A DNA stretch of 64,000 nt from Nitrospirota bacterium (GTDB taxonomy: Bacteria > Nitrospirota > Thermodesulfovibrionia > Thermodesulfovibrionales > Dissulfurispiraceae): NCBI GenBank assembly GCA_040752355.1, contig JBFMHE010000014.1, positions 1-64,000 on the forward strand. The letters run 5' to 3'. Positions within the stretch are counted from its first letter, which is position 1. Each line of letters begins with the position of its first letter. A program made the translations under genes and the position numbers. Of the stretch, positions 47,457 through 64,000 are shown piece after piece. The notes beneath the pieces are model-generated. The model searched no databases. It was not told the DNA's origin and saw only the letters and a program-made list of their open reading frames with translations.

Positions 47457-47714
47457 AGAGACACAGCTCTCTCCGGGGTATCGCGCAGCACTACGGTCCG
47501 CCTTACCCGGTATATCCGCTATCTCTGCGCAGCGGTTCCAGGGAGATAGACACATCATCATTCTTATTAACCGTCGATAGCGAAATTTCTCGCACAGCGC
47601 TGCACCAGGCGACATTTCTTCGCACCCTCATTTCTGCCGCACCCGCCATCTCACGATTGTTTCTGCTGTGGGCAGCCGCAACGGGAAATGCAACTGTACG
47701 GTGAGGAGGATACC
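47457..47714 (+). other. Untranslated leader of the glycan operon
   Basis: About 258 bases between the predicted start and GTG 47715 show no credible ORF and no strong hairpin. It is a long leader for an otherwise tightly packed operon and could host regulation that I cannot see. Confidence 0.4.
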
Positions 47715-48833
47715 GTGAGCAAACACATCTTGATTACGGGAGGCGCAGGCTTTATCGGCTCCCATCTTGCCGATGAGCTGCTCAGGCAGGGCTATCGTGT
47801 TCGCGCGCTCGATAATCTCTCGGTTCAGGTCCACGGGCCCGACTGCACGAGGCCGGAGTATCTCAGTCCCGAGGTGGAGCTGATCGTCGGGGATGTGCGG
47901 GACCCGGAGGCGGTGGCGCGGGCCCTCGACGGCATCGATGCCGTGTACCACTTCGCAGCGGCAGTCGGCGTCGGGCAGAGCATGTACGAGATCGAGAAGT
48001 ATATCGATACGAACAGCAGGGGCACTGCCGTTCTCCTCGAAGCGGCGATCAAGCGGCCCGTGGCGCGGCTGGTCGTCGCCTCGAGTATGAGCGTCTACGG
48101 CGAGGGGCTCTACTGCGCGCCGGACGGTACGGTCTGCAGCGATGCGGGGAGAAGCCTCGGGCAGCTGAAGGAGGGCAGATGGGAGCTGCAGAACCGGAAC
48201 GGCGCTATCCTCGTGCCGGTGCCGACCCCCGAAGCCAAAAAACCCTGTCTCACCTCGGTCTACGCTCTTTCGAAATACGATCAGGAACGCCTCTGCATGA
48301 TGGCGGGCCAGGCGTACGGGATCCCCGTGACGGCGCTCCGCTTCTTCAACGTCTTCGGAACACGCCAGGCCTTTTCGAATCCGTACACCGGGGTGCTCGC
48401 CATCTTCGCCTCACGGCTCCTCAACGGCAGACCGCCGCTCATCTTCGAGGATGGCTACCAGCAGCGCGATTTCGTGAGCGTCTACGATGTCGCGCGCGCC
48501 TGCCGGCAGGCACTGGAAGTCCCCGCCGCAGCGCATAACATCTTCAACATAGGAAGCGGTACTCCCTATACCATCCTCGAAGTCGCCGAGCGCATGGCGG
48601 AGGTCTTCGGGAAACGGCATATCAGGCCGCAGGTCGTCGGAAAATATCGAATGGGAGATATCCGCCACTGTTTTGCCGATATCTCCCGTGCCCGCGAAGT
48701 CCTGCATTACGAACCCTGCGTCACCTTCGACGAGGGTCTGCTCGAGCTGAGCGAGTGGATCGAGGGCAAGGTCGCCTTCGACCGGGTCGAAGAGGCGAGT
48801 GCGGAGCTGGCCGGGCGGGGGTTGACGGTATGA
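47715..48833 (+). CDS. NAD-dependent sugar-nucleotide epimerase/dehydratase
   Basis: A 372-residue extended SDR enzyme: Rossmann motif ITGGAGFIGSHLADELL, catalytic SSMSVYGEG and YALSKYDQERL (Tyr-x3-Lys), and the substrate motif RFFNVFGTRQAFSNPYTGV. It acts on a nucleotide sugar, probably a 4-epimerase or related step. GTG 47715 follows GAGGAGG and is preferred over ATG 47688. A 40-residue insert around residues 120-160 is longer than in GalE. First gene of the operon, overlapping the next by four bases. Confidence 0.92.
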   Translation: MSKHILITGGAGFIGSHLADELLRQGYRVRALDNLSVQVHGPDCTRPEYLSPEVELIVGDVRDPEAVARALDGIDAVYHFAAAVGVGQSMYEIEKYIDTNSRGTAVLLEAAIKRPVARLVVASSMSVYGEGLYCAPDGTVCSDAGRSLGQLKEGRWELQNRNGAILVPVPTPEAKKPCLTSVYALSKYDQERLCMMAGQAYGIPVTALRFFNVFGTRQAFSNPYTGVLAIFASRLLNGRPPLIFEDGYQQRDFVSVYDVARACRQALEVPAAAHNIFNIGSGTPYTILEVAERMAEVFGKRHIRPQVVGKYRMGDIRHCFADISRAREVLHYEPCVTFDEGLLELSEWIEGKVAFDRVEEASAELAGRGLTV

Positions 48834-50944
48834 GCGAAGTGCGTTATCTCACGACCAGGATGCGGGACCGGCTCGCGAAGTCGGTGAGGGTGCAGAGCCC
48901 GCAGGCGACGCCGTCCCGGCGCGCGGGACCGGTCATCGGCATGAGCGAAACGTTCCGCACCGGCGCCTGCGACGAGGTCGAGCAGGTGTTGCATGATCTC
49001 AAAGCGCTCGGCGTCACCGAGCTCCGGGCGCCGGTCTCCTGGGCTCACTGGCAGACGCCCGCGGGAGAAGAGTGGTATAACTGGCTCATCCCCCGCCTGA
49101 CTCAGGAAGTGCAAGTCCTTCCCTGTCTTGTCCAGACGCCCCCCTCCCTGGGGGTGCTTCCGAAAACATCCGCCCCTCCCCGTGACCCCAGGTCATTTGC
49201 CGACTTCGTCGAGGCGTTCCTTACCCGCTTCGATAAGTTCCTGGAGTATGTGGAGCTCTGGAACGAGCCGGATAAAGTATACAACTGGGACTGGCGGCTC
49301 GACCCCGAATGGCGCATCTTCTCCGAGATGATCGGCAGCGCCGCGTACCGGGCCCAGCAGTACGGGAAGAAGGCCGTCCTGGGGGCGACCTGTCCTACCG
49401 ACCCGCACTGGCTCCGCCTGCTCTGCGAGCGCGGTATCCTTTCCTATATCGATGTCGTGGGATTTCACGGTTTTCCGGGCACGTGGGAGTTCGACTGGGA
49501 CGAGTGGTCGTTCAAGGTGTCAGAGCTGCGCGATGTCCTGGACACCTACAGTCTCGACAAAGAGCTCTGGATTACCGAGACCGGCTTCTCCACCTGGAAG
49601 CATGACGAGCTCGGACAGCTGAGGGAGTTCATCAAGGCGGCCGAGGCACCGGCAGCGCGCGTCTACTGGGCGTCGGTCCGGGACCTCCCTCCCGACCTTC
49701 CCGGCCCCGAGGGCATGCATACCGATGAGCGGTGCTATCACCTCGGGCTGCGGCAGAGCGACGGGAGACCGAAGCTGCTCTTCCGGCTCTGGCAGAGCGG
49801 CGGGATCGATGCGGTGCGCGAGACGTTCCGGCTCACGCTCCCCCCCGTGCCTGCGCCTGAGCACCGGCTGCAGCCGGTGCTCATTATCGGCGGCGCAGGC
49901 TTCATCGGGACCAACCTCGCCCACCGCCTGCTCGCGACAGAGCAGCCGGTGCTCATCTACGATAACCTTTCCCGGCCGGGCGTCGAGCGGAACCTGCGCT
50001 GGCTGCGGGAGGCGCACGGCGACCTCGTCCGGGTCGAGATCGCGGACATCTGCAACCGCGCAGCCCTCCGGGAAGCGCTGCGCGGAGCCCGGCAGGTCTT
50101 TCACTTCGGCGCACAGGTAGCGGTGACGACGAGCCTCGTCAATCCCGATTATGACTTTACGGTCAATGTCTGCGGCACGATGAACCTCCTCGAAGAGCTC
50201 CGCAGACTCGAGAGCCCTCCTCCCCTGGTCTTCACCTCGACCAACAAAGTCTACGGGGGACTCGAAGATATCTATTTGCGGAAGTACGGCGCACGGTACG
50301 AGCCGATCGATTTCCTGACCAGGCTCTCCGGCATCAACGAGCGGTGCATGCTCGATTTCCAGAGCCCCTACGGCTGCTCCAAGGGCACGGCCGACCAATA
50401 TATACTCGATTATGCCCGCACCTACGGGATCCCGGCGACGGTCTTCAGGATGAGCTGCATCTACGGCCCCCACCAACTCGGCACCGAGGACCAGGGGTGG
50501 GTGGCGCACTTCCTGATCAGCGCCATCAAGGGCAGGCCGATCACCATTTACGGTGACGGGATGCAGGTCCGGGATGTGCTGTATGTCGAGGACCTCGTCG
50601 ACGCCCTGCTGATCGCCCAGGCGAATATCCGGCTCCTCTCCGGCCAGGCCTTCAACATCGGCGGCGGACCGGCGAACACGCTGAGCCTCCTCGAGCTGGT
50701 CGAGATGGTCGCCGGCCTGCACGGCGCGCGGCCGGAGGTGCACTTCGACGAGTGGCGCCACGGCGACCAGCGCTATTACGTCTCCGACGCGCGGAAGTTC
50801 AAGACCATGACCGGCTGGACCCCGCGGACGAGCGTACACCAGGGCGTCGCGAAGCTGTACGAGTGGCTGACGCTCTTGCGCGCCTCCTCCCCGATCCTCT
50901 TACAGGAGAAAGAGCCGCATGAAGTACTCATTGATCAATCCTGA
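48830..50944 (+). CDS. Fusion: clan-A glycosidase-like barrel + CDP-tyvelose-epimerase-like SDR
   Basis: A 704-residue two-domain protein. Residues 35-325 look like a GH5/GH39-type TIM barrel with acid/base Glu146 in VELWNEPD and nucleophile Glu250 in WITETGFSTW. Residues 350-690 form an NAD-binding SDR (GGAGFIGTNLAHRLL) with FTSTNKVYGG, SPYGCSKGTADQY and MSCIYGPHQLGTEDQ, closest to CDP-paratose/tyvelose 2-epimerases. There is no signal peptide, so the barrel is cytosolic and may trim or transfer a lipid-linked sugar rather than degrade polymer. ATG 48830 overlaps the upstream stop. Confidence 0.9.
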   Translation: MSEVRYLTTRMRDRLAKSVRVQSPQATPSRRAGPVIGMSETFRTGACDEVEQVLHDLKALGVTELRAPVSWAHWQTPAGEEWYNWLIPRLTQEVQVLPCLVQTPPSLGVLPKTSAPPRDPRSFADFVEAFLTRFDKFLEYVELWNEPDKVYNWDWRLDPEWRIFSEMIGSAAYRAQQYGKKAVLGATCPTDPHWLRLLCERGILSYIDVVGFHGFPGTWEFDWDEWSFKVSELRDVLDTYSLDKELWITETGFSTWKHDELGQLREFIKAAEAPAARVYWASVRDLPPDLPGPEGMHTDERCYHLGLRQSDGRPKLLFRLWQSGGIDAVRETFRLTLPPVPAPEHRLQPVLIIGGAGFIGTNLAHRLLATEQPVLIYDNLSRPGVERNLRWLREAHGDLVRVEIADICNRAALREALRGARQVFHFGAQVAVTTSLVNPDYDFTVNVCGTMNLLEELRRLESPPPLVFTSTNKVYGGLEDIYLRKYGARYEPIDFLTRLSGINERCMLDFQSPYGCSKGTADQYILDYARTYGIPATVFRMSCIYGPHQLGTEDQGWVAHFLISAIKGRPITIYGDGMQVRDVLYVEDLVDALLIAQANIRLLSGQAFNIGGGPANTLSLLELVEMVAGLHGARPEVHFDEWRHGDQRYYVSDARKFKTMTGWTPRTSVHQGVAKLYEWLTLLRASSPILLQEKEPHEVLIDQS

Positions 50945-52220
50945 CTGGACCTTCGGCGGCAGCATCTACTTCGGATGCCGCGAGCCGCACCTCCCCCTCG
51001 AATACGGGTATGCGAAGGCGCTCCTGGAGCGCGTGGGACACGACGTGCTCCTTATCGACGGGCATAGGGATGGTCTCCCGGCGCAGGCGATTGCGCAGCA
51101 GACGCATGCCTTTGCCCCGGATATCATCGTCATTACCACGGCGCCGAGCTATCTCTTCTGGCGTTGCGCGCCCCCGGAGCTCCGTGCGCCCCTGGAGATC
51201 GTGCGGGCAGTGCGCGAGAGCGGGGCGCTTACCGTTGCCGTGGGGCCGCACGGCTCTACAACGCCCGAAGCGGTGATGAAAAAGCTGGGCGTCGACAGGG
51301 TGATACGGGGAGAGCCCGAAGAGGTGCTCCCTCTCCTGGCGCAGGACCCGGGAAGAGGGAAGACTATCCCCTCGGTCTTCTGGCGGGAGGAGGGGGGCGC
51401 AGGAAGAAGAGGAACGCCGCACGAAAGCGACATGGCTGCGCTGCCGGCGCTGCGGTGGCCCCGGGAGGTCCTCGCCCGGCGCCGGCACCACCACCACCGC
51501 TTCGACTGCGCGCCCGGGCAGACGGGTGCACCGGGCGCCGAGGTCGAGAGCTCGCGGGGATGCCCTTACAGCTGCTCCTTCTGCGCCCGGGAGACCTTCC
51601 GGGGCCGGTATCGCAGGCGTCCCGTGCCGGTCGTGCTCGAAGAGATCGACGACCTCGTGAGCAAGGGCGTGAGCTACCTCTACTTCATCGACGAGCTGTT
51701 CATGCCCGACAGCGCGCTGCTCGCTGCAGTGGGGGAACGGGATGTCGCCTTCGGCATCCAGACGAGGATCGACCTCTGGACCCCGGAGCTGCTGGAGCGG
51801 CTCGGCGCCGCGGGCTGCGTCTCGATAGAGGCCGGCATCGAGAGCGCGAGCGAGGCGGCGCGCCTCGCCCTCGGCAAGCGGTGTATGAAGACGAACAGCG
51901 AGCTGATCGATCTCCTGAAGTGCGCGCGCGACCATGTGCCGTTCGTTCAGGCGACCCTGCTCGCCTCGGATGCCGACGATCCGGCGCTGACTGCAGAATG
52001 GCGCGACCTCCTCCTCCGCTCCAACGTATGGACCAATGAGCCCGTGCCCCTCTTTCCCTATCCCGGGTCGCAGGAATATGCAAAGCGCTGGGGGCCTCCG
52101 GATGAGTATGCGTGGGAGCGGGCGCACGGCTGCTACCTGCAGCAGCACAGCGCCTTCAGCGATATCCAGGAAGAGCGGCCGCTTCCCCTCGCCCGGCTCG
52201 AAGCAGGCGGGGGGCGATGA
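50919..52220 (+). CDS. B12-binding radical SAM protein
   Basis: A 433-residue protein with an N-terminal cobalamin-binding Rossmann region (LEYGYAKALLERVGHDVLLI, lacking the usual DxHxxG His ligand) and a radical SAM barrel with cluster motif SRGCPYSCSFCARETF. Such enzymes often methylate or rearrange unactivated carbons. I believe it corresponds to TIGR04295 ('rhizo-twelve system'), recalled from memory. It overlaps the upstream fusion gene by 26 bases and the next gene by four. A run of five His with Arg/His neighbours near residue 190 is unusual. Confidence 0.9.
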   Translation: MKYSLINPDWTFGGSIYFGCREPHLPLEYGYAKALLERVGHDVLLIDGHRDGLPAQAIAQQTHAFAPDIIVITTAPSYLFWRCAPPELRAPLEIVRAVRESGALTVAVGPHGSTTPEAVMKKLGVDRVIRGEPEEVLPLLAQDPGRGKTIPSVFWREEGGAGRRGTPHESDMAALPALRWPREVLARRRHHHHRFDCAPGQTGAPGAEVESSRGCPYSCSFCARETFRGRYRRRPVPVVLEEIDDLVSKGVSYLYFIDELFMPDSALLAAVGERDVAFGIQTRIDLWTPELLERLGAAGCVSIEAGIESASEAARLALGKRCMKTNSELIDLLKCARDHVPFVQATLLASDADDPALTAEWRDLLLRSNVWTNEPVPLFPYPGSQEYAKRWGPPDEYAWERAHGCYLQQHSAFSDIQEERPLPLARLEAGGGR

Positions 52221-53365
52221 GCAGGGCGATGAGGCGGCATCCCAAGCGTATTCTCATGACCGCCGATACCCTGGGCGGCGTATGGACCTACGCCGTCGAG
52301 CTCGCGCATGTCCTCTGGAAGCACGATATCGAGGTGGTCCTCGCAACCATGGGCGCCCCCCTGTCGGCGCAGCAGCGCGCCGACCTTCGCCAGATCCCCG
52401 GCGCCGAGCTTCATGAGAGCACGTTCAAGCTCGAGTGGATGGAGCACCCGTGGGACGATGTCGCCCGCGCCGGAGAGTGGCTGCTCAGGCTCGAAGAAGA
52501 GCTCGAGCCCGATATCGTCCATCTCAACGGGTATGCGCACGGGGCTCTCCCCTGGAAAGCGCCCCGGCTCGTCGTGGGGCACTCCTGCGTCCTTTCGTGG
52601 TGGGAGGCGGTCCTGAAAGAGCCGGCTCCCCCGGAGTGGAAGCGGTACCGTCATGAGGTCAAGCGCGGCATCGCTGCAGCCGACGCCGTCGTCGTCCCGA
52701 CTGCGTCGATGCGCGATGCGCTCGCACGCCACTACCATAGCGACATCGCCTGCAGCATTATCCCGAACGGACGGAATACCGAACTGTTTGCGCCGGGGAT
52801 CAAAGAGGCGCTCGTCCTTACGGCGGGAAGGCTCTGGGACAGGGCGAAGAACGTGGCAGCGCTCATGGAGAGCGCGCCGCTCCTCTCCTGGCCGCTCTAT
52901 ATCGCCGGCGAGGAGTGCCCCCCGTCCGGGGGCGGCGACACCGCGGCAGGGCGCCATAGCGCGGTCCGCCGCCTCGGCCGGCTCCCGGCAAGCGGGATCG
53001 CCTCGTGGATGTCGCGAGCTTCTCTCTATGCATTTCCTGCCTACTACGAACCCTTCGGACTTTCGGTGCTCGAGGCAGGGCTGTCCGGGTGCGCGCTGGT
53101 GCTCGGCGACATCCCGAGCCTCCGCGAGCTCTGGCACGATGCGGCGCTTTTCGTTTCACCCGACGACACCTCTATGATACGGGAGGCGATCGAGACACTC
53201 ATCCGCAATGCGGCATACCGGCAGGAGATGGCGGAACGTGCACGGGTGAGGGCCCAGGAGTTCACGCCCCGGCGCATGGCAGCGGGCTATCTCGCGGTGT
53301 ACGAACGTATGGTGCAGTCGGCTGCGGCGCCGGCCTCCGAGACGGAGGGGCAATGCGTATCGTGA
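52217..53365 (+). CDS. GT4-family glycosyltransferase
   Basis: A 382-residue GT-B enzyme. The N-terminal donor/acceptor fold begins ILMTADTLGGVWTYAVELA; the C-terminal domain holds TAGRLWDRAKN and the GT4 signature FPAYYEPFGLSVLEAGLSGC with the E-x7-E pair. It transfers sugar from an activated nucleotide, retaining type. ATG 52217 overlaps the previous stop as ATGA. Confidence 0.93.
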   Translation: MSRAMRRHPKRILMTADTLGGVWTYAVELAHVLWKHDIEVVLATMGAPLSAQQRADLRQIPGAELHESTFKLEWMEHPWDDVARAGEWLLRLEEELEPDIVHLNGYAHGALPWKAPRLVVGHSCVLSWWEAVLKEPAPPEWKRYRHEVKRGIAAADAVVVPTASMRDALARHYHSDIACSIIPNGRNTELFAPGIKEALVLTAGRLWDRAKNVAALMESAPLLSWPLYIAGEECPPSGGGDTAAGRHSAVRRLGRLPASGIASWMSRASLYAFPAYYEPFGLSVLEAGLSGCALVLGDIPSLRELWHDAALFVSPDDTSMIREAIETLIRNAAYRQEMAERARVRAQEFTPRRMAAGYLAVYERMVQSAAAPASETEGQCVS

Positions 53366-54465
53366 TGTTCTATCACTCGCTCCTCTCGGACTGGAACCAC
53401 GGCAATGCGCATTTTCTGCGCGGCATCGCCTCGGAGCTCCTGTCGCGCGGGCATACGGTGGCGGTGTACGAGCCCCGGAACGGCTGGAGTCTCTCGAACC
53501 TCCTCGAAGAGCACGGCACCGCGCCGCTCCGTGAGTTCCGCGGGGCCTATCCCCATCTCACGAGCATACGCTACCGCCGCGAGACGCTCGATCTCGACCG
53601 TGCGCTCGACCGCGCCGACCTGGTCATCGTGCATGAATGGAACGATCACGACCTGGTGCGGCGCATCGGGGAGTACCGGAGCCGGGCAGGCGGCCTTACC
53701 CTCCTCTTTCATGATACCCACCACCGCTCGGTGACGGCGCCGGAGCTGATGGCGGCCTATGACCTGTCGCACTACGACGGCGTGCTCGCCTTCGGCGAGG
53801 TCGTCCGCACGATCTATCTCTCGCGCGGCTGGACGCAGCGGGCATGGGTCTGGCACGAGGCTGCGGATACCAGGATATTCTACCCCGACAGCGCTCGCGG
53901 AGAAGAAGGGTGCGAGGGCGACCTCGTCTGGATCGGGAACTGGGGCGATGAAGAGCGGACCGCGGAGCTGCAGGAGTTCCTGCTCGGGCCGGTGAAGCGA
54001 CTCGGGCTGAAGACGCGCATGCACGGCGTGCGCTATCCCCGGCATGCGCGGGACATGATCGCCGGCGCAGGGATCGAATACCGCGGGTGGCTCCCGAATT
54101 ACAGGGTACCGCGGGTCTTTGCGCGTTTCAGGCTCACGCTCCATGTGATCCGGCGTCCCTATGTGCAGGCGCTGCCCGGGATCCCGACGATCCGTCCCTT
54201 CGAGGCGCTCGCCTGCGGCATCCCCCTGATATGCGCGCCCTGGGAAGATGCGGAGGGCCTGTTTACTCCGGGCGAGGACTTTCTCGTTGCGCGCAACGGC
54301 AACGAGATGCTGCGCCATATGAAGACCCTGCTGCGGGACGCCGAGATGTCCCGCGCGCTTGCGGAGCACGGATACCGGACGGTCGTCAGCCGCCACACCT
54401 GCGCTCACCGCGTGGATGAGCTGCTCGCTGTTTGCCGGGAGCTCAGGGGAGTGAATCCGGAATGA
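53353..54465 (+). CDS. CgeB-type glycosyltransferase (first of four)
   Basis: A 370-residue GT-B protein of the CgeB/DUF3880 kind. It starts MRIVMFYHSLLSDWNHGNAH, has the family's central SxD-type repeat region (DLVWIGNWGDEERTAELQ) and the C-terminal block RPFEALACGIPLICAPWEDA with the acidic sugar-nucleotide site. It overlaps the upstream gene by 13 bases. Substrates unknown. Confidence 0.9.
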   Translation: MRIVMFYHSLLSDWNHGNAHFLRGIASELLSRGHTVAVYEPRNGWSLSNLLEEHGTAPLREFRGAYPHLTSIRYRRETLDLDRALDRADLVIVHEWNDHDLVRRIGEYRSRAGGLTLLFHDTHHRSVTAPELMAAYDLSHYDGVLAFGEVVRTIYLSRGWTQRAWVWHEAADTRIFYPDSARGEEGCEGDLVWIGNWGDEERTAELQEFLLGPVKRLGLKTRMHGVRYPRHARDMIAGAGIEYRGWLPNYRVPRVFARFRLTLHVIRRPYVQALPGIPTIRPFEALACGIPLICAPWEDAEGLFTPGEDFLVARNGNEMLRHMKTLLRDAEMSRALAEHGYRTVVSRHTCAHRVDELLAVCRELRGVNPE

Positions 54466-54479
54466 AAGGACAGCACCGT

Positions 54480-55565
54480 ATGCGCATCGCCTTTTTCGGT
54501 TCGAGTCTCGTCTCGGCCTACTGGAACGGGGCGGCGACCTATTACCGCGGCATTATCCGCGAGCTCCACCGGCTGGACTACCGGATCACCTTCTATGAGC
54601 CGGATGCTTACGGGCGGCAGCAGCACCGCGATATCGTCGATCCCCCCTGGGCCCGTGTCGTCGTCTACGCAGCCGACGACGAGGGCCTCGCCGCTGCCCT
54701 CGACGACGCGCGTCATGCCGACCTCATCGTCAAGGCGAGCGGCGTCGGCGTCTTCGATGAAGCGCTCGAAGCAGCGGTCCTCCAGATAAAGCGGCCCGGC
54801 GCAGCGGCTGCCTTCTGGGATGTGGACGCCCCCGCGACCCTCGACCGCGTTCAGCAGAGTCCGGACGATGCCTTCCGCGCGCTCGTCCCCCGCTACGACT
54901 TCATCTTTACCTATGGAGGCGGCGACCCGGTGGTGACGGCGTATACGTTGCTGGGGGCGCGGCATTGCATCCCTATCTATAATGCCCTCGACCCCGCGAC
55001 CCACTACCCCGTCGCCCTCGATACGCGGTTCAGCGGCGACCTCGGCTTCATCGGCAACCGCCTCCCCGACCGGGAGGCGCGGGTGAAGGAGTTCTTCATC
55101 GATGTCGCGCGCCGGCTGCCCCGCTGCCGTTTTCTCCTGGGCGGCAACGGGTGGGAGCCACCGCTCCCCGGGAATATCACGTATCTCGGGCATGTCTATA
55201 CGCATGAGCACAACGCATTCAACAGCACGCCGCGGGCGGTGCTCAACATCAACAGGGAGAGCATGGCCCGGTACGGATTCTCCCCGCCGACCCGCGTCTT
55301 CGAGGCTGCCGGCGCCGGCGCCTGCCTGATTACCGATGCCTGGGAGGGCATCGAGCTCTTCCTCGAGCCGGGGCGCGAGGTCCTCGTCGCCCGGAGCGGG
55401 GAGGAGGTCGCCGAGCAGCTCCTCTCGCTTACCGTCGACCGCGCCGCCGGGATCGGTGAGGCGGCGCTCAAGCGTATCACTGCAGAGCATACCTATGCCC
55501 ACCGGGCGAGGCAGCTGCATGCCGTGCTCGATGCCCCTGCAGGTCGTGCAGGAGGGTGTGCATGA
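54480..55565 (+). CDS. CgeB-type glycosyltransferase (second of four)
   Basis: A 361-residue relative of its neighbours: start MRIAFFGSSLVSAYWNGAAT, central LGFIGNRLPDREARVKEFF, and C-terminal PTRVFEAAGAGACLITDAWE followed by the E-GREVLVAR block. ATG 54480 has AAAGGA upstream; ATG 54462 (ATGA overlap) would add six residues. Same family as genes at 53353, 55562 and 58795 but clearly divergent. Confidence 0.9.
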   Translation: MRIAFFGSSLVSAYWNGAATYYRGIIRELHRLDYRITFYEPDAYGRQQHRDIVDPPWARVVVYAADDEGLAAALDDARHADLIVKASGVGVFDEALEAAVLQIKRPGAAAAFWDVDAPATLDRVQQSPDDAFRALVPRYDFIFTYGGGDPVVTAYTLLGARHCIPIYNALDPATHYPVALDTRFSGDLGFIGNRLPDREARVKEFFIDVARRLPRCRFLLGGNGWEPPLPGNITYLGHVYTHEHNAFNSTPRAVLNINRESMARYGFSPPTRVFEAAGAGACLITDAWEGIELFLEPGREVLVARSGEEVAEQLLSLTVDRAAGIGEAALKRITAEHTYAHRARQLHAVLDAPAGRAGGCA

Positions 55566-56644: not shown

Positions 56645-56692
56645 TCTCATGAAGGGATGTCGTATGCACGCAGCAGCACAAAGGGAGGGACT

Positions 56693-57445
56693 ATGGCGAC
56701 GGCAGAGACAGCGATCGAGCCTCGGGAGAGGCGGATGGTCATACGAAAAGAGCGCAAGGGAAAAGGAGTGAACGTCGGGCGGGCGGAGCGCTGGATCTCG
56801 ATGATGGGCGGCAGCATTCTCGCACTCTACGGTCTCACCCGCCGCTCCCGCCGGGGCCGGGCGCTTTCCCTGCTCGGCAGCTACCTCCTCGTATCCCGCG
56901 GCAGGTCGGGACATTGCCCCCTGTACGGCGCCCTCGGCGTTTCGACTGCAGGAGCGGCGGCCGCCGAGGGGATAAGCATGGAGAAGAGCGTCATCATCAA
57001 CCGTCCGCGCGAAGAGGTCTACCGGTTCTGGCGGAACTTCGAGAACCTCCCCCGCTTTATGCGCCACCTCGAGTCGGTGCGCAGCACCGACGGACGCTCC
57101 CACTGGGTAGTGCGCGAGCCGGGCGGCATCACGGTGGAGTGGGATGCGGAGATGACCGAAGACCGGGAAAACGAGTTCATCGCATGGCATACTCTCGAGA
57201 ATGCCGATATCCGGCATAAAGGCAAGGTCATGTTCAGCGATGCGACCGGCGGCCGGGGCACCGAGGTGAGAGTGAAGATGAAGTACCGCCCTCCGTTGGG
57301 CGCGCTCGGAGCAGCGGCAGCGAAACTGCTCACTGCGATACCGAAGAACCAGCTCGAAGAGGACCTGCGGAACTTCAAGCAGGTCATGGAGGCGGGAGAG
57401 ATCCCGACGACCGAGGGGCAGCCCTCGGGCAGGCAGCGGCGCTGA
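56693..57445 (+). CDS. SRPBCC lipid-binding-fold protein with N-terminal membrane region
   Basis: A 250-residue protein. Residues 30-95 contain YgaP-like (DUF2892-type) membrane segments (ERWISMMGGSILALYGLTRR, ALSLLGSYLLV, CPLYGALGV). Residues 100-235 form a START/SRPBCC domain (SVIINRPREEVYRFWRNFEN, LPRFMRHLESV) that binds hydrophobic ligands. Together they suggest a membrane-tethered lipid-binding or cyclase-like role. SRPBCC genes of this layout commonly precede zinc alcohol dehydrogenases, as here. Start preceded by GGGAGGG. Confidence 0.88.
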   Translation: MATAETAIEPRERRMVIRKERKGKGVNVGRAERWISMMGGSILALYGLTRRSRRGRALSLLGSYLLVSRGRSGHCPLYGALGVSTAGAAAAEGISMEKSVIINRPREEVYRFWRNFENLPRFMRHLESVRSTDGRSHWVVREPGGITVEWDAEMTEDRENEFIAWHTLENADIRHKGKVMFSDATGGRGTEVRVKMKYRPPLGALGAAAAKLLTAIPKNQLEEDLRNFKQVMEAGEIPTTEGQPSGRQRR

Positions 57446-57544
57446 GCAGGAGGCCGGCGCGGCTGCCGCCGCCGGATGCGGATCGCGAACCCCTGATGAA
57501 AAGACTCTCGCAAACAGGCTCCGTTGCGAGAGGGGAGGACGAGT

Positions 57545-58714
57545 ATGAAGGCATTATGCTGGTACGGGAAGAACGACGTGCGGGTAAAGGACGTGCCCGC
57601 ACCCTCTGTCATAAATCCGCACGACGCGATCGTGCGCGTAACGCTCTCCGCGATATGCGGGTCCGATCTGCACCTCTACGACGGGTATGTCCCGACCCTG
57701 AGGGAGGGCGACATCCTCGGCCATGAGTTCATGGGGGTGGTGGTCGATGCCGGCAGCGCGGTCGAGACCGTGAGGCCCGGAGACCGGGTGGTCGCCTCGT
57801 TCACGATCTCCTGCGGCCACTGCTTCTTCTGCGCCAACGATATGTGGTCGCTCTGCGACAACTCCAACCCGAACGCCGCGATGATGGAGAAGGTGTACGG
57901 CTACGCGACCGCAGGGTTTTACGGATATGCGCATATGTTCGGCGGCTACGCGGGAGGCCAGGCGGAGTATGTGCGCGTGCCGTTTGCCGATACGGGGCTG
58001 CTGAAGCTCTCCGACGGCGTGCCGGACGAACAGGCCCTCTTCCTTTCGGATGTCTTTCCCACGGGCTATATGGCTGCGGAGAACTGCGGCATCAGGCCGG
58101 GAGACACGGTTGCGGTGTGGGGCTGCGGCCCGGTGGGCCAGTTCGCGATCAAGAGCGCCTACCTGCTCGGCGCCGAGCGGGTCATCGCCATCGACCGGTT
58201 TCCCGAGCGGCTCGGCATGGCGCATGAGGAGGGCAAGGCCGAGGTGATCGACTATACGCAGGTGGACCTCGACGAGACCCTTGCGGATATGACCGGCGGC
58301 CGGGGGCCCGACGCCTGCATCGACGCCGTGGGCATGGAAGCCCACGGGACCGGCATCGACGCATGGTACGACCGGGCGAAGCAGGCGGTGCGTCTCGAGA
58401 GCGACCGCCCCACGGCGCTCCGCCAGGCGATCAAAATCTGCAGAAAAGGGGGCACCGTCTCGGTCCCCGGGGTTTACGGCGGCTTCATCGATAAAATGCC
58501 GATGGGCGCCGTGTTCAACAAGGGACTGACCATCAAGACAGGGCAGACGCATGTCCAGAAGTACATGCGGCCGCTCCTCGAGCACATAGAGCAGGGGCGC
58601 ATCGACCCCTCGTTCATTATCACGCATCGCCTGCGCCTCGAGGACGCGCCGCGCGGCTACGATATCTTCAAACATAAAGAGGAGAACTGCATCAAGGTCG
58701 TTCTCAAGCCGTAA
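57545..58714 (+). CDS. Zinc-dependent alcohol dehydrogenase
   Basis: A 389-residue medium-chain dehydrogenase. Catalytic zinc ligands: Cys in ICGSDLH and GHEFMG; the structural zinc site is [15 protein letters not shown]; the NAD-binding motif is [12 protein letters not shown]. It is of the glutathione-independent formaldehyde dehydrogenase-like group; the true substrate is unknown. The start follows GGGGAGGA. It lies between the third and fourth CgeB-type transferases with 80-100-base gaps, looser than the rest of the operon, hinting the SRPBCC-ADH pair was inserted as a unit. Confidence 0.93.
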
Positions 58715-58794
58715 GCCGGAGCTGCCCGCTCCGTCTGCCGCGGGAGGACGGTGCGGAACAGAGCAACCACCACGACGGATCTTCAGAGCTGGTT

Positions 58795-59913
58795 ATGAAA
58801 CTGGTCATCTTCGGACTCACGATAAGCTCTTCCTGGGGAAACGGGCATGCGACGCTCTGGCGCGGGCTCTGCCGCGCATTGGTGCGGCGGGGGCACCGGG
58901 TCGTCTTTTTCGAGCGGGACGTCCCCTACTATGCGCACCACCGCGACCTCATCGAGCTCTCCGGCGTGACGCTCTGCTTCTACCAGAGCTGGTCCGCGGT
59001 GCTGCCTGTTGCCCGGGAGCAGCTTGCCGATGCCGATGCCGGCATGGTGACCTCCTACTGTCCCGACGGGGTCGCCGCGTCGGAACTGGTAGGATGCTCG
59101 CCGGTGAGACTGCGTACGTTCTACGACATGGATACCCCGGTGACTCTGGAGCGCGTACGCGGGGGCCAGCCGGTCTCCTATATCGGCCCCCGCGGCCTCC
59201 GGGACTTCGACCTGGTGCTGAGCTACACCGGAGGGAAGGCGCTGGAGGAGCTCCGGACGCTCCTGGGCGCACCCCGTGTCGCGCCGCTTTACGGGAGCGT
59301 CGATCCCTCGACGCACTACCCCGTGCCGTCCGTCGACGCCTACCGGGCCGACCTCTCCTATCTGGGGACGTACGCCGACGACCGCCAGCGGATGCTCCAG
59401 GCGCTGCTGGTCGAGACCTCCCGGAGGCTCCCCCGGCGGCGCTTTCTCATCGGCGGCTCCCTCTACCCGGAATCGTTTCCGTGGGGGGAGAATATCTGCT
59501 ACATCCCTCACGTGCCGCCGCCGGAGCATCCCTCCTTCTTCTGCTCCTCGACCTTTACGCTGAATGTCACCCGCGGGGCGATGGCGGAGATGGGGTACTG
59601 TCCGTCGGGCCGTCTCTTCGAGGCAGCGGCCTGCGCAGCGCCGCTGATCAGCGACTGCTGGGAGGGCCTCGAGCAGTTCTTCTCGATCGGCGCCGAGATC
59701 GCCATTGCACGGACGACGGAGGAGGTGATGGCTGCGCTCGAGATGTCTCCTGACCGGATCGCCCGGATCGGCCGGGCTGCGCAGGAGCGCGTGCTGGCCG
59801 AGCACACGGCCGACCAGCGCGTCCGCGACCTCGAGCGGGCGCTGGACGCCGCAGGACATGCGCTTGCGGAGTTCGGCGCATACCGGTACTACCCTTCAAC
59901 CGCGGAGGATTAG
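58795..59913 (+). CDS. CgeB-type glycosyltransferase (fourth of four)
   Basis: A 372-residue paralogue of the protein at 55562: IFGLTISSSWGNGHATLWRG, then RTFYDMDTPVTLERV, YLGTYADDRQRMLQALLVET and SGRLFEAAACAAPLISDCWE. Conservation of the FYDxDTPVT block in both proteins marks a shared subfamily, presumably acting on related acceptors. Two bases separate it from the nucleotidyltransferase gene. Confidence 0.92.
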   Translation: MKLVIFGLTISSSWGNGHATLWRGLCRALVRRGHRVVFFERDVPYYAHHRDLIELSGVTLCFYQSWSAVLPVAREQLADADAGMVTSYCPDGVAASELVGCSPVRLRTFYDMDTPVTLERVRGGQPVSYIGPRGLRDFDLVLSYTGGKALEELRTLLGAPRVAPLYGSVDPSTHYPVPSVDAYRADLSYLGTYADDRQRMLQALLVETSRRLPRRRFLIGGSLYPESFPWGENICYIPHVPPPEHPSFFCSSTFTLNVTRGAMAEMGYCPSGRLFEAAACAAPLISDCWEGLEQFFSIGAEIAIARTTEEVMAALEMSPDRIARIGRAAQERVLAEHTADQRVRDLERALDAAGHALAEFGAYRYYPSTAED

Positions 59914-59915
59914 GT

Positions 59916-60641
59916 ATGTGGGGAATCATTCCCGCCGCAGGCGTCGGCAGCAGGATACAGCCGCTCGCCTTCTCGAAGGAGCTGCTCCCGGTGGGCAGCC
60001 GGCTCGACCAGGGAGTCGAACGGCCCCGCGCGGTCAGCGAGTATCTCGTCGACCGGATGATCGCGGGCGGTGCGACAAAGATATGCTTCATTATCGCTCC
60101 GGGCAAATCGGATATCCTGGAATACTACGAGGGCAATGTGAGCTCAGCACACGTCTGCTATACCGTACAGCCCCGTCCCGCCGGACTCTGCGACGCCATC
60201 TTCCGCGTTCTTCCGCTGATCCATCCCGACGAACAGGTGATCGTGGGACTGCCGGACACCATCTGGTTTCCCGAAGAGGGGTTCCGCCTTCTCGATGACG
60301 CGGCCCTCTCGTTCCTCCTGTTTCCGGTCGAGCACCCCGAGCTCTTCGATGCGGTCGTCACCGATGACAGGGGCGCCGTCCGCGAGATACAGGTGAAGCA
60401 GCCCCGGCCCGCCACCTCATGGATATGGGGAGGGTTCAAGCTCTCCGGGGCGGTCTTGCGCGGCCTCTTTGCGCTCTGGTCCGAGCGGGACCGCAGTGAC
60501 GAGTATATCGGCACGCTCGTCAACGCCTACCTGGCGCGCGGCGGTGAGGCCCGGGGCGTGAAGGGCGGGCAGTCCTATGTGGACGTGGGGACCCTCAACG
60601 GCTACCGTGAAGCGATCAAACTGCTCAGTGCGCGAACATGA
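59916..60641 (+). CDS. Sugar-1-phosphate nucleotidyltransferase (RmlA-like)
   Basis: A 241-residue NTP transferase: nucleotide loop IIPAAGVGSRIQPLAFSKEL with the activating Lys, VIVGLPDTIWFPEEG in place of the usual GDN/D metal motif, and a C-terminal YVDVGTLNGYREA. It should make an NDP-sugar for the surrounding transferases. At the second metal site the common Gly-Asp is replaced, so the preferred sugar may be unusual. Confidence 0.9.
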   Translation: MWGIIPAAGVGSRIQPLAFSKELLPVGSRLDQGVERPRAVSEYLVDRMIAGGATKICFIIAPGKSDILEYYEGNVSSAHVCYTVQPRPAGLCDAIFRVLPLIHPDEQVIVGLPDTIWFPEEGFRLLDDAALSFLLFPVEHPELFDAVVTDDRGAVREIQVKQPRPATSWIWGGFKLSGAVLRGLFALWSERDRSDEYIGTLVNAYLARGGEARGVKGGQSYVDVGTLNGYREAIKLLSART

Positions 60642-61447
60642 ACCTTTCTCAGGAGCAAAAGGAGATGCTCTCTATGACGTATCATTCCTCAGTTCCGTCT
60701 TCAGTCCCGCCGGACCGGCTCACCCCTGACGAGATCAGGAGGAGAGTGGCCGAGCTCGGTCCGTGGTTCCATAACCTCAAGCTGCGCGGCATCGAGACCG
60801 CTCCCGATCACTTCCTCGGCGACTACCCTGAAGTCAAATGGCGCCACTTCGCCCATGCCGTCCCTGCCGACCTGCAGGGGAAGTCGGTGCTCGACATCGG
60901 CTGCAACGCCGGGTTCTACGCCATCGAGATGAAGCGGCGCGGCGCCGGACAGGTGGTGGGCATCGATTCGGATGCGGATTATCTTGCACAGGCGCGCTTC
61001 GCCGCCGCTGTCCACGGGATGGAGATCGAGTTTCAACAGCTCTCGGTATACGAAGTGGCGCGGCTGGGCAGGAGCTTCGATATCGTCCTCTTCATGGGGG
61101 TGCTCTATCACCTCCGCCACCCGCTCTTCGCCCTCGACCTCCTCCACCGCCATGTGGTCAGGGACCTGCTCATCTTTCAATCCATGCTGCGGGGCAGCGA
61201 CGAGGTCGCTGCCATCGAAGACGACTACTCCTTCAGCGAGCGCTGCATATTCGAAGACCCTTCGTTTCCCCGGATGCATTTCATAGAGCGCAAGTACTCG
61301 GGGGATCCCACGAACTGGTGGCTCCCGAACCGCGCCTGCGTCGAGGCGATGCTCCGCAGCGCCTCGTTCGAGATCATCGACCACCCCGAAGAGGAGGTCT
61401 ACATCTGCCGGTCCTTGGAAAGAAAGGAGGGGGGCATCGATGATTGA
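60638..61447 (+). CDS. CmoB-like SAM-dependent methyltransferase (TIGR04290-like)
   Basis: A 269-residue methyltransferase: FHNLKLRGIETAPDHFLGDY as a pre-motif, SAM-binding SVLDIGCNAGFYAIEMKRRG, GIDSDADYL and VLFMGVLYHLRHPLFALDLL. The layout matches CmoB-type enzymes, but genome context points to a sugar or lipid substrate rather than tRNA. I recall TIGR04290 as the family linked to the rhizo-twelve cluster. It overlaps both neighbours (ATGA upstream, eight bases downstream). Confidence 0.9.
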   Translation: MNLSQEQKEMLSMTYHSSVPSSVPPDRLTPDEIRRRVAELGPWFHNLKLRGIETAPDHFLGDYPEVKWRHFAHAVPADLQGKSVLDIGCNAGFYAIEMKRRGAGQVVGIDSDADYLAQARFAAAVHGMEIEFQQLSVYEVARLGRSFDIVLFMGVLYHLRHPLFALDLLHRHVVRDLLIFQSMLRGSDEVAAIEDDYSFSERCIFEDPSFPRMHFIERKYSGDPTNWWLPNRACVEAMLRSASFEIIDHPEEEVYICRSLERKEGGIDD

Positions 61448-62327
61448 GGCCGTCATGCTCTGGAACGAGCCGAACAACCTGTCCCATTGGGACTTTCATA
61501 TCGACGCCGAGTGGAACCTGTATGCCGGGATGGTGAAGAGCGCCGCCGCCGCCGTCGCAGCCGAGAACCCGCGCCTCCTGCGCGTGCTGGGCGGCATCTC
61601 CCCCATCGATCCCAATTTCGTCGCCAACATGAAGAGCAAGGGCGTGCTCGACCACGTCGAGGTGGTCGCTGTCCACGGGTTCCCTCTCGACTGGAACCAC
61701 TGGACCATCCATGAATGGCCGGACAAGCTCGGAGAGATACAGGCGGTCACCGACCTGCCGGTCTGGGTGTCGGAGGCGGGGGTCTCGACCTTCGGCGCCG
61801 AGGAGGTGCAGGAGTTCGGGCTGAGGCGCACTGCCGAGCTGCTCCGGGGGCGGGCCGGGCGCATCCACTGGTACAGCCTGTACGACCTGCCGAGGGCGTG
61901 GCCCGCCACGACACGCCACCGCGAGGCCGAAGGGTCGTCGTACTACCGCCATTTTTACATGGGGCTGCTCCGTGAGGACGGCTCTCCCAAGCTCGCACTT
62001 CCCTCTTTTCCCGCGTACACGCCGGAGCTCGGCATCTGCCAGTGGTTTCATTTCGAGGACCACCGCCTCGACGACGCCGTGCGATGGCTCAAGAGACTGG
62101 GAGTGAGCTACCTGCGGACCGGCCTCAGCTGGGCGGACAGCCTCCGCCCGGATGCCGATGCATGGTTCGACCGGCAGATGAAGGCGCTCGAGGGATTCAG
62201 CGTGACGCTCACCTTCTGCTTTACGCCCGAGTCCCGCGGCATTACTCCCCACCACACCAGCCCGCCCCGCCGGCCCGAGGAGTTTGCGGAGTTCTGCGCG
62301 CGGATGGTGCGCCGCTATGCAGCATAG
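61440..62327 (+). CDS. Circularly permuted clan-A glycosidase-like protein
   Basis: A 295-residue protein whose two halves match the barrel at 48830 in reversed order. Residues 1-190 start directly at the fourth strand with acid/base Glu10 (AVMLWNEPN) and nucleophile Glu112 (VWVSEAGVSTF). Residues 195-295 (WLKRLGVSYLRTGLSWA, then TFCFTPESRG and EFAEFCARMVRRY) correspond to strands one to three. Both catalytic Glu are kept. I recall database entries called beta-xylosidase of similar layout. Eight-base overlap with the methyltransferase gene sets the start. Confidence 0.85.
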   Translation: MIEAVMLWNEPNNLSHWDFHIDAEWNLYAGMVKSAAAAVAAENPRLLRVLGGISPIDPNFVANMKSKGVLDHVEVVAVHGFPLDWNHWTIHEWPDKLGEIQAVTDLPVWVSEAGVSTFGAEEVQEFGLRRTAELLRGRAGRIHWYSLYDLPRAWPATTRHREAEGSSYYRHFYMGLLREDGSPKLALPSFPAYTPELGICQWFHFEDHRLDDAVRWLKRLGVSYLRTGLSWADSLRPDADAWFDRQMKALEGFSVTLTFCFTPESRGITPHHTSPPRRPEEFAEFCARMVRRYAA

Positions 62328-63408
62328 GGCCGTCCATGCGCCGCTGACCGTGCTCAATGTCGCCTATCCGCTGGCGCCGGTCGGTCCCGATGCCGTGGGC
62401 GGCGCAGAGCAGGTGCTCGGCATGATCGATGACTTCCTCGTGCGTTCGGGCCACCGGTCGGTCGTCATCGCCTGCGAGGGCTCGGCGGTGAGGGGCGCTC
62501 TTATCAGTACTCCCCGGGTCGAAGGACGCATCGACGAAGCGGCGCGCGCCTTTGTGAGGGAGCAGCATCGAAGGGCTATAAAGAAGGCGCTCTCCGCCGG
62601 GCACATCGATGTCGTGCATATGCACGGCATCGATTTCGAGCACTACCTCCCCCCCGAGGGAGCGCCGGCGCTGGTGACGCTCCACCTGCCGCTCGCCTGG
62701 TATCCGCCGAGCTCCCTGCGGCCCGCGCGGCCGCTGACGTATCTCCATACCGTCTCTGCGGCGCAGCATGCGACCCGCCCGCGCAGTCTGGACCTGCTGC
62801 CGCCGATCGACAACGGCGTGCCGGTCGAAGAGCTCTCTCTCACCGTGAGCAAGCGGAACTTCGTCCTTTCCCTGGGCAGGATCTGCCCCGAGAAAGGATT
62901 CCATCTCGCCCTCGATGCCGCGGGCCGGGCCGGTATCCCGCTGATCCTCGCCGGCGCGCTGTATCCGTATGAGGTGCATATGCGTTATTTCACCGAAGAG
63001 ATCCGGCCCCGCCTCGAGGGCCGGCAGCACCGCTTTCTCGGCCCCGTGGGATTCTTTCGCAAACGCCGCCTCCTCACTGCAGCGCGGTGCCTGCTCATAC
63101 CGAGCCTCGTGGCAGAGACGAGCTCGCTGGCAGCCATGGAGGCCCTCGCCTGCGGAACGCCGGTCATCGCCTTCCCTTCGGGAGCGCTCGCGGATATCGT
63201 CGAACAGGGCAAGACCGGCTTTATCGTGCGCGACGTGCGGGAGATGGCCGAGGCCATTGCAGCGGCGCCGGAAATAGACCCCGGGCTCTGCAGGAGCGAG
63301 GCGAGGAGGCGCTTTTCCCATACCGCCATGGTGCAGCGCTACCTGGAGCGGTATTGTGCCCTTGCTGCGAACAGGAAGCTCTCTTCAAAAGAATGTGAGG
63401 TATCATGA
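62317..63408 (+). CDS. GT4-family glycosyltransferase
   Basis: A 363-residue GT-B enzyme: VGGAEQVLGMIDDFLVRSGH, acceptor-side HMHGIDFEHYL, then LSLGRICPEKGFHLALDAAG and the signature AETSSLAAMEALACGTPVIA. ATG 62317 overlaps the upstream gene by 11 bases. Likely acts after the earlier transferases on the same glycan. Confidence 0.93.
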   Translation: MQHRAVHAPLTVLNVAYPLAPVGPDAVGGAEQVLGMIDDFLVRSGHRSVVIACEGSAVRGALISTPRVEGRIDEAARAFVREQHRRAIKKALSAGHIDVVHMHGIDFEHYLPPEGAPALVTLHLPLAWYPPSSLRPARPLTYLHTVSAAQHATRPRSLDLLPPIDNGVPVEELSLTVSKRNFVLSLGRICPEKGFHLALDAAGRAGIPLILAGALYPYEVHMRYFTEEIRPRLEGRQHRFLGPVGFFRKRRLLTAARCLLIPSLVAETSSLAAMEALACGTPVIAFPSGALADIVEQGKTGFIVRDVREMAEAIAAAPEIDPGLCRSEARRRFSHTAMVQRYLERYCALAANRKLSSKECEVS

Positions 63409-64000
63409 ATAGGGAATCATTGTCGCTGCATATCGAGGAAGTAACCACCGGGCGCGGGCTGGAGGCCCTCGTCCCCGAGTGGTCAGCGCTCTGGGCGCGC
63501 TCTCCTTCAGCAACTCCCTTCCAGACCCCTGAATGGCTCCTGCCCTGGTGGCGGCATATCGGCCGCGGTGAGCTCCTGGTCATAACGGTACGTTGCGAGG
63601 GGAGACTGGTCGGGCTGGCGCCCTTGTTCATCGATGACGGTCCGGGCTATGACGGTCCCGCGTGCTGCAACCGGCGGATAGCCCTTCTGGGGAGCGGCAT
63701 TACCGACTACCTCGACGTCCTCTTCGAGCCTGACGCAGCCCCTGCCGGGACCGCTGCGGTCTTTCGCTATCTGCTCCGCGAGCGTGCCCGGTGGGAGCTC
63801 TGCGATCTCCGGGAGATCCGGACGACCTCTCCGCTGCTCGGGTGCACGCTGTCTCATGGACTCTCTGCGAGGATACGCCCTCTCGAAGCCTGTCCGGTGC
63901 TGGAATTGCCCGAGAGTATCGAGGCCCTCAGGAGCGGGATTTCCGCTGCACAGAGGGTGCGGGTGGACCGCGCCCGGCGGGCGGTGGATTCTGCCGGAAG
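63405..64000 (+). CDS. CelD/FemAB-type GNAT acyltransferase, N-terminal part
   Basis: The frame starts at ATG 63405, overlapping the upstream stop as ATGA, and runs off the window after about 198 residues. The N-terminal pattern WSALWARSPSATPFQTPEWL, followed by PWWRHIG and LVGLAPLFI, is typical of CelD/BcsL-type acyltransferases found in polysaccharide operons, where they acylate sugars. The domain is cut off in its second half. Confidence 0.85.
   Translation, partial: MNRESLSLHIEEVTTGRGLEALVPEWSALWARSPSATPFQTPEWLLPWWRHIGRGELLVITVRCEGRLVGLAPLFIDDGPGYDGPACCNRRIALLGSGITDYLDVLFEPDAAPAGTAAVFRYLLRERARWELCDLREIRTTSPLLGCTLSHGLSARIRPLEACPVLELPESIEALRSGISAAQRVRVDRARRAVDSAG

Follow-up and report, generated by a model that had tools for sequence, protein, structure and literature searches.

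What does the long run of glycan-type genes at the right end of the window make? The window is the whole stretch of 64,000 nucleotides analysed here, i.e. positions 1-64000 of the 106,040-base contig JBFMHE010000014.1 from the 3.57 Mb genome of a Nitrospirota bacterium. The operon consists of fifteen rightward genes on the forward strand, the last one running past the window, as claimed by an original prediction made from the letters alone and borne out by a check of the open reading frames (ORFs). It encodes, among others, a B12-binding-domain radical SAM enzyme (rSAM), a CmoB-like methyltransferase and a glycosidase with a circularly permuted barrel, denoted XYL in the following. With a probability of roughly 40%, the operon is read here as holding both modules of one widespread pathway leading to a small methylated oligosaccharide, which would probably be cytosolic and induced by general stress.

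Two marker proteins in a conserved neighbourhood

The rSAM (50919-52220), which displays the motif CxxxCxxC, matches NCBIfam family TIGR04295 over residues 1-422 with 613.6 bits (cut-off 400), and the methyltransferase (60638-61447) matches TIGR04290 over residues 2-226 with 391.7 bits (cut-off 300). Membership of these two families, by which the original prediction had proposed to be judged, is therefore confirmed. The rSAM reaches at most 58.3 bits with any other NCBIfam family. Both markers are hypothetical equivalogs in NCBIfam. The name 'rhizo-twelve', given to the cluster by the original prediction and taken here as an unconfirmed label, is absent from the library text; a literature search for this name, TIGR04290 and TIGR04295 returned no paper, and the cluster is not confined to rhizobia.

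When 84,980 species genomes were scanned with the rSAM alignment, 531 stretches matched, 457 of which encode a relative. The 89 loci compared here are the best 80 of these 457, the window contig, four of eleven plasmid records and four genomes of the window's phylum, with flanks of 10 kb as a rule and 18 kb for plasmids, many stretches ending at contig ends. The ORFs of the whole set served to build gene families, which were then assigned with profiles. The loci fall into six phyla: the 77 labelled rows comprise 36 Pseudomonadota (alphaproteobacterial by title), 25 Acidobacteriota, 8 Myxococcota (mostly titled Deltaproteobacteria), 4 Cyanobacteriota, 2 Nitrospirota and 2 Thermodesulfobacteriota, while 12 rows carry no label. 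The window rSAM is closest to that of Nitrospira (61%), and within the window's phylum an rSAM above the TIGR04295 cut-off is present in only 5 of 395 genomes, the window genome included. Recent horizontal spread was considered and rejected, since the rSAM tree of the 77 labelled rows follows the phyla closely (6 label changes, the minimum being 5); the patchy presence may thus as well be due to loss. A further search found no title on this cluster or on glycosidase permutation; neither Rta_068 nor radical SAM occurs in the accessible portion of PMC3164672, and an excerpt of PMC9658432 deals with the sugar composition of a Ramlibacter exopolysaccharide.

Module A of the cluster starts in the window with SDR1 (47688-48833, the start being either ATG at 47688 or GTG at 47715; 82 of the 89 loci), a GalE/LegB-like nucleoside-diphosphate-sugar epimerase or dehydratase into which some 40 residues are inserted, PF01370 matching it in two stretches with profile gaps. 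It is followed by the two-domain protein SDR2 (58 loci), the rSAM (89), the glycosyltransferase GT4 (52217-53365; PF13439/PF13692; 66) and three CgeB-like glycosyltransferases matching PF13524, namely GTa (53353-54465, start at 53353 or 53362; 71), GTb (54462-55565; 79) and GTc (55562-56644; 50); a UDP-xylose synthase (28 loci) completes the module elsewhere. Module B opens with a further CgeB-like glycosyltransferase, GTx (58795-59913; PF13524; 35 loci), a paralogue of GTc and hard to separate from it. Next come a sugar-phosphate nucleotidyltransferase of the RmlA superfamily (59916-60641; PF00483, 38.1 bits with RmlA from the PDB; 19), the TIGR04290 methyltransferase (42), XYL (61440-62327; 45), the glycosyltransferase GT4B (62317-63408; PF00534; 10) and a CelD/GNAT-type acyltransferase (6), which starts at 63405, leaves the window at 64000 and ends at contig position 64520. 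Other module B families are an inositol-phosphate synthase (25 loci), a histidine phosphatase (24), a PIG-L protein (8) and a kinase-fold protein (13). Two accessory genes lie between the modules in the window, one for an SRPBCC domain joined to a YgaP-type transmembrane protein (56657-57445; PF03364, PF11127; 13 of 89 loci) and one for a zinc-dependent dehydrogenase (57524-58714; PF08240/PF00107; 9).

With the most plausible gene starts, on which the junction figures rest, neighbouring genes overlap by 4-26 bases at 10 of the 14 junctions, in line with the predicted overlaps, whereas the other four are gaps of 12, 78, 80 and 2 bases. The predicted enzyme classes are likewise borne out by Pfam and NCBIfam matches, including those of the six glycosyltransferases, the SRPBCC-membrane protein with the zinc dehydrogenase and the RmlA-like transferase, except that the N-terminal part of SDR2 is a glycosidase-like barrel and that XYL owes its class to profile alignment, predicted structure and superposition. 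The full-length acyltransferase gene scores 98.2 bits with PF13480 (cut-off 22) and has no NCBIfam match; its family being present in six loci only, an acylated product is not a core trait of the cluster.

The gene order is conserved, as had been expected. Directly before the rSAM the profiled families place SDR2 in 59 loci and SDR1 in 28 (together 87 of 89), the remaining two being contig ends, and GT4 follows the rSAM in 65. The run rSAM-GT4-GTa-GTb is found in 48 of the 89 loci and the longer run SDR1-SDR2-rSAM-GT4-GTa-GTb in 33, and UDP-xylose synthase directly precedes SDR1 in genomes G093, G120 and G233. Families and order of the window operon match those of loci from Azospirillum, Bradyrhizobium, Tistrella and Methylobacterium. 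Compared to other TIGR04295/TIGR04290 loci, the window operon holds both modules, lacks inositol-phosphate synthase and UDP-xylose synthase, and contains additional genes, namely the SRPBCC and zinc dehydrogenase genes inside and the CelD, kinase-fold and PHP genes at its end.

Modules A and B, joined in one operon in the window, often lie apart in the genome. Around glycosidases located away from the rSAM, 20 extra stretches were taken, one of them (G361) without rSAM. The genes for GTx, nucleotidyltransferase, methyltransferase and XYL are consecutive in 9 of the 20, inositol-phosphate synthase lies upstream in 7, all alphaproteobacterial, and the glycosidase stands without other module B genes in 2. 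In the window's phylum the permuted glycosidase is present in 6 of 395 genomes and the rSAM in 5, all 5 being common to both (hypergeometric 7.7e-11). The sixth glycosidase genome is G361 (L152, G361:C161), where the genes for nucleotidyltransferase, methyltransferase, XYL, GT4B, CelD and kinase-fold protein follow each other at a contig end, with no rSAM above cut-off in the assembly. Across the whole set the permuted glycosidase is found in 79 of 89 cases, 45 in the locus itself and 4 more plus 30 by genome searches. These 30 belong to 33 genomes lacking it at the rSAM locus; it was not found in the other three (L049, L094 and L113), metagenome assemblies with short contigs. One in-frame stop is seen within the glycosidase match in four of the 30 (G416, G423, G432, G439).

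Two variants of module B can be distinguished. The inositol-phosphate synthase profile finds its gene in 25 of 40 alphaproteobacterial loci and in none of the 49 others, and UDP-xylose synthase is present in 21 of 40 versus 7 of 49, while the nucleotidyltransferase (3 of 40 versus 16 of 49) and PIG-L (0 of 40 versus 8 of 49) show the reverse distribution. A divergent inositol-phosphate synthase inside the G183 cluster is found only by Pfam and missed by the profile.

Inositol-phosphate synthase bears on two further readings of the cluster. One is a secreted pseudo-oligosaccharide natural product assembled in the manner of an aminoglycoside. Besides the synthase in the alphaproteobacterial loci, it could invoke AprD4 of apramycin biosynthesis, the closest solved structure to the window rSAM (45.8 bits), with which and with other B12-domain radical SAM enzymes the rSAM has its domain make-up in common. 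However, the AprD4 family NF033070 scores 38.2 bits with the window rSAM, far from its cut-off of 500, the recurring families with an annotation include no sugar aminotransferase (one Cys/Met-type pyridoxal-phosphate enzyme recurs in 4 loci), and both the conservation across phyla and the general-stress promoter found in Alphaproteobacteria speak against such a product, which is regarded as quite improbable. The other is a mycothiol-like pseudodisaccharide, in which a sugar-inositol would be deacetylated by PIG-L and N-acylated by CelD. The best model of an in-cluster synthase is indeed that of mycothiol INO1, TIGR03450 (528.8 bits, cut-off 638), and that of a PIG-L protein is BshB2 (52.7 bits, cut-off 195.25); 8 of 89 loci contain PIG-L and 6 contain CelD, and inositol-phosphate synthase, GT4 enzymes and PIG-L are reminiscent of mycothiol-type inositol-glycan logic. 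Yet all these scores remain below cut-off, PIG-L is restricted to non-alphaproteobacterial and the profiled synthase to alphaproteobacterial loci (both occur together in G183 alone), a disaccharide would need far fewer than four to six glycosyltransferases, and the window operon has no PIG-L. A mycothiol-like product therefore appears very improbable.

A permuted barrel and its fused counterpart

Judged by profile alignment, predicted structure and motifs, XYL is a PslG-like barrel in circularly permuted form in all 45 cases examined. The profile of the SDR2 N-terminal domain matches 45 of 45 XYL proteins in swapped pieces, profile positions ~126-306 preceding positions ~21-125 (one begins at 101), which agrees with the 'permuted glycosidase' of the original prediction. 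The AlphaFold2 model of XYL (predicted local distance difference test (pLDDT) 90.6, predicted template modelling score 0.89) depicts an eight-strand barrel that begins at strand 4, the strand carrying WNEPN, and thus runs through strands 4-8 followed by 1-3, an order different from that of the GH39/PslG family. PslG, a GH39 protein from the Psl exopolysaccharide cluster, shares with XYL the barrel, the acid/base NEP motif and the nucleophile glutamate. The acid/base motif WNEPN is present in 45 of 45 XYL proteins and the nucleophile pattern, by regular expression, in 43, and the catalytic residues Glu10 and Glu112, on predicted strands 4 and 7, are invariant in all 33 aligned rows. Window XYL has no Pfam or NCBIfam match; PF11790 is matched by two homologues, with scores under the cut-off.

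Superposition with VIA-align pairs residues 1-195 of the XYL model with residues 156-356 of PslG at a root mean square deviation (rmsd) of 2.4 Å over 175 residues, with 22% identity (Z 12.0, rank 34). The last third of the model remains unaligned, as expected for a sequential aligner that meets a permutation. Unrelated barrels reach Z values of up to 13.8, but at 3.4-4 Å over the whole length, and the link to PslG consequently rests on rmsd, identity and motifs. Foldseek alone yields diffuse TIM-barrel matches.

The unpermuted counterpart is found within SDR2, the start of which is probably 48830. Its first ~350 residues (48830 to about 49880) form a GH39/PslG-like TIM barrel of normal strand order instead of an SDR, according to profile and motif alignment and a weak match to PslG itself (E 0.097). 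The C-terminal domain (49862-50944) is an SDR that resembles CDP-tyvelose 2-epimerase over its whole length (PDB 9rl0 and 1orr, 280.5 and 267.8 bits; next family 124.2). The likeness to the epimerase is one of sequence only, and contrary to that enzyme the SDR2 domain is fused to the glycosidase-like barrel, a fusion that also distinguishes this barrel from PslG. No signal peptide is visible by eye in either the SDR2 barrel or XYL.

Fusions of this kind, with an unpermuted barrel in an SDR2 of more than 550 residues, occur in 18 loci. Both catalytic glutamates are kept in 7 of them: the window, where they lie in WNEPD and ITETG, as well as L038, L052, L054, L055, L087 and L091. The other 11 have lost at least one, and all 11 of these genomes carry a full permuted glycosidase (564-601 bits). 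In contrast, a permuted form was not found in the genomes of L052, L054, L087 and L091, i.e. in four of the five intact-barrel genomes searched, the fifth being the window genome with both barrels intact; L038 has none on its plasmid, to which the search was confined. L049, with a degenerate barrel and no permuted glycosidase in its assembly, counts against a strict hand-over; including it, a degenerate barrel is found in 12 genomes and the permuted form in 11 of these. L053 has an intact nucleophile, its acid/base half not being recovered. Fisher's test gives 0.010 without and 0.004 with L038, both values ignoring relatedness; upon correction for kinship only 2 (supported) to 4 independent pairs remain, with p 0.5 and no statistical power. 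This distribution suggests a need for one active barrel, a role that the permuted form is able to assume.

Stress promoter and nature of the product

In many Alphaproteobacteria the cluster is tied to the general stress response by its promoter sequences. The EcfG motif GGAAC-N17-20-GTT, as given in the accessible part of PMC6599016, precedes SDR1 in the proper orientation in 15 of the 37 alphaproteobacterial loci with a usable upstream stretch (3 of the 40 have none) and is reversed in 5 of 37. By comparison, only 1 of 45 non-alphaproteobacterial loci contains it, and among the controls it is seen in 5 of 455 upstream regions and in 35 of 3192 windows. These controls comprise 21 stretches from 11 of the same alphaproteobacterial genomes, with three more such stretches left out. 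An earlier, near-identical form of the motif (N16-19) likewise matched 15 of 37 loci, as compared with an average of 0.59 and a maximum of 4 in 200 shuffles. The same part of PMC6599016 names topoisomerase IB, Ku and a zinc alcohol dehydrogenase as EcfG-dependent, and topoisomerase IB and zinc dehydrogenase kinds also lie beside some of the clusters. At least one of SRPBCC, zinc dehydrogenase, YhdF-like SDR, topoisomerase IB, DUF1003 and YihY/BrkB is present in 31 of 89 loci versus 2 of 33 control stretches, a comparison leaning upward, as the profiles derive from cluster loci and these loci were chosen for holding the cluster. The stress-related product guessed by the original prediction is thus supported by the motif in Alphaproteobacteria and more weakly by such neighbours, but by nothing comparable in the window genome.

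Taken together, the following route may be proposed. SDR1, the C2-epimerase-type SDR2, UDP-xylose synthase and the nucleotidyltransferase would supply activated sugars, and in Alphaproteobacteria inositol-phosphate synthase and histidine phosphatase would provide inositol, probably as the acceptor. Four to six glycosyltransferases would assemble the chain, the rSAM and the TIGR04290 protein would methylate or otherwise modify it, and a catalytically intact PslG-like barrel could trim, transglycosylate or recycle the product. Inositol is likely part of the alphaproteobacterial product. All five rSAM genomes of the window's phylum, to which this count is limited, hold homologues of inositol-phosphate synthase and UDP-xylose synthase somewhere; in the window genome these lie on other contigs, so that to place inositol or xylose in its product is a guess. 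Two inositol-phosphate synthases are present there, one scoring 512 bits with the in-cluster profile. A cytosolic location is favoured by the fusion of the SDR2 barrel to a nucleotide-sugar enzyme and by XYL beginning at a core strand.

Several observations weigh against this proposal. The role of every gene is read from sequence evidence, the profiled inositol-phosphate synthase is missing from all 49 non-alphaproteobacterial loci as well as from the window operon, and the EcfG evidence comes from Alphaproteobacteria, not from the window genome, where 22 of 37 clusters lack the strict motif and 5 of 37 show it reversed. Furthermore, an MsbA-type ABC half-transporter beside 4 of 89 clusters speaks for export in these cases. 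The restriction of the profiled synthase to alphaproteobacterial loci lowers confidence both in the cytosolic oligosaccharide and in a broader proposal, namely a new class of protective metabolites in at least six phyla. These would be methylated oligosaccharides with inositol or a pentose, cytosolic and made under stress, whose assembly would need one active PslG-like barrel in either of two interchangeable forms, 2-epimerase-fused or circularly permuted, the fused one decaying to a pseudo-enzyme once the permuted one is present. In this full extent the proposal is considered unlikely.

The half-transporter leads to the alternative that the cluster makes a building block of a surface glycolipid or exopolysaccharide, exported by a general or dedicated ABC flippase. 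The four cases, candidates for a dedicated exporter, are G183:C4 (L042 and neighbours), L072, L079 and L080; the best NCBIfam model of one of them is MsbA (407 bits, below the cut-off of 602). CelD and PIG-L in some clusters would fit a glycolipid, as would genes of phospholipase-D, YbhP-like and VTT families beside 10, 9 and 7 of the 89 clusters, respectively, and exopolysaccharide clusters often hold glycosidases, PslG among them, according to the accessible part of PMC9075953. On the other hand, a transporter of this kind above 400 bits is lacking from 85 of 89 loci in the stretch covered (six have weak ABC matches of 63-131 bits), and an MsbA-type transporter also occurs in 1 of 33 control stretches. 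Neither a Wzx/Wzy-like protein nor an initiating transferase is present among the Pfam-annotated recurring families, rarer families lying outside the annotation and flanks being mostly 10 kb. The missing exporter of the original prediction therefore holds for the neighbourhood in the window genome, but not for these four clusters. An exported building block is a possible though doubtful alternative; between it and the cytosolic stress oligosaccharide the sequence evidence does not decide.

Flanking genes and biological meaning

The operon extends past the window to about 66.9 kb. A 578-residue protein (contig 64517-66253), the kinase-fold protein of module B, has no Pfam or NCBIfam match, and its family is present in 13 of 89 loci. 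Its C-terminus is assigned a choline-kinase fold by way of a homologue from L076, the AlphaFold2 model of which (pLDDT 82.5) has a choline-kinase-like C-terminal half (Z 17.6, 4.8 Å over 255 residues). In the middle of the protein a phosphoribosyltransferase-like motif is seen by eye (DEGPGLSGSS in A5). The last gene, ending at contig position 66929, encodes a PHP-domain protein (Pfam), and together the two proteins might ribosylate the cluster product. A phosphopentomutase gene lies inside or beside the cluster in L040 (14419-15624; 510.5 bits, cut-off 256), L107 and L118, hinting at a pentose-1-phosphate precursor.

Some 290 bases further on, the next rightward gene (contig 67222-68094; 4223-5095 in L006) encodes an SDR that we take to be YhdF-like, a family adjoining 10 of 89 clusters and found in 2 of 33 control stretches. 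Beyond the window end at 64000, where the original prediction had suggested looking for an exporter, a Pfam scan of nine downstream ORFs to 91 kb revealed no flippase, polymerase or exporter, nor did inspection by eye of the remaining ORFs to about 103 kb.

Upstream of the operon a phospholipase-D family gene (43206-44768) and an endonuclease/exonuclease/phosphatase gene (44904-45650) are found on the reverse strand, followed by a VTT/DedA gene (45848-46570) on the forward strand; the three families recur in loci of the window's phylum, of Nitrospira and of 'Deltaproteobacteria'. The name YbhP-like for the second is, as YhdF-like above, a tentative one, Pfam giving only endonuclease/phosphatase and SDR domains. 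A small histidine kinase (HisKA and HATPase; 46623-47396, forward), possibly a local regulator, is encoded between the VTT gene and SDR1, at a distance of 291 bases from the latter. In addition, a YflT-domain (heat-induced stress protein) gene is located near the cluster in L062 (17742-18329) and in three other loci.

New here are the extent of the XYL permutation, the SDR2 barrel fusion with its pattern of decay and the enrichment of the EcfG motif. That at least a dozen genes keep their order in six phyla, under a general-stress promoter in many Alphaproteobacteria, points to a compound that is worth its cost to soil- and plant-associated bacteria. The rSAM, the permuted glycosidase, the inositol-phosphate synthase and the EcfG promoter provide markers by which the pathway can be traced. 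The apparent hand-over of catalysis between normal and circularly permuted barrels would provide an example of enzyme evolution seldom met in nature.

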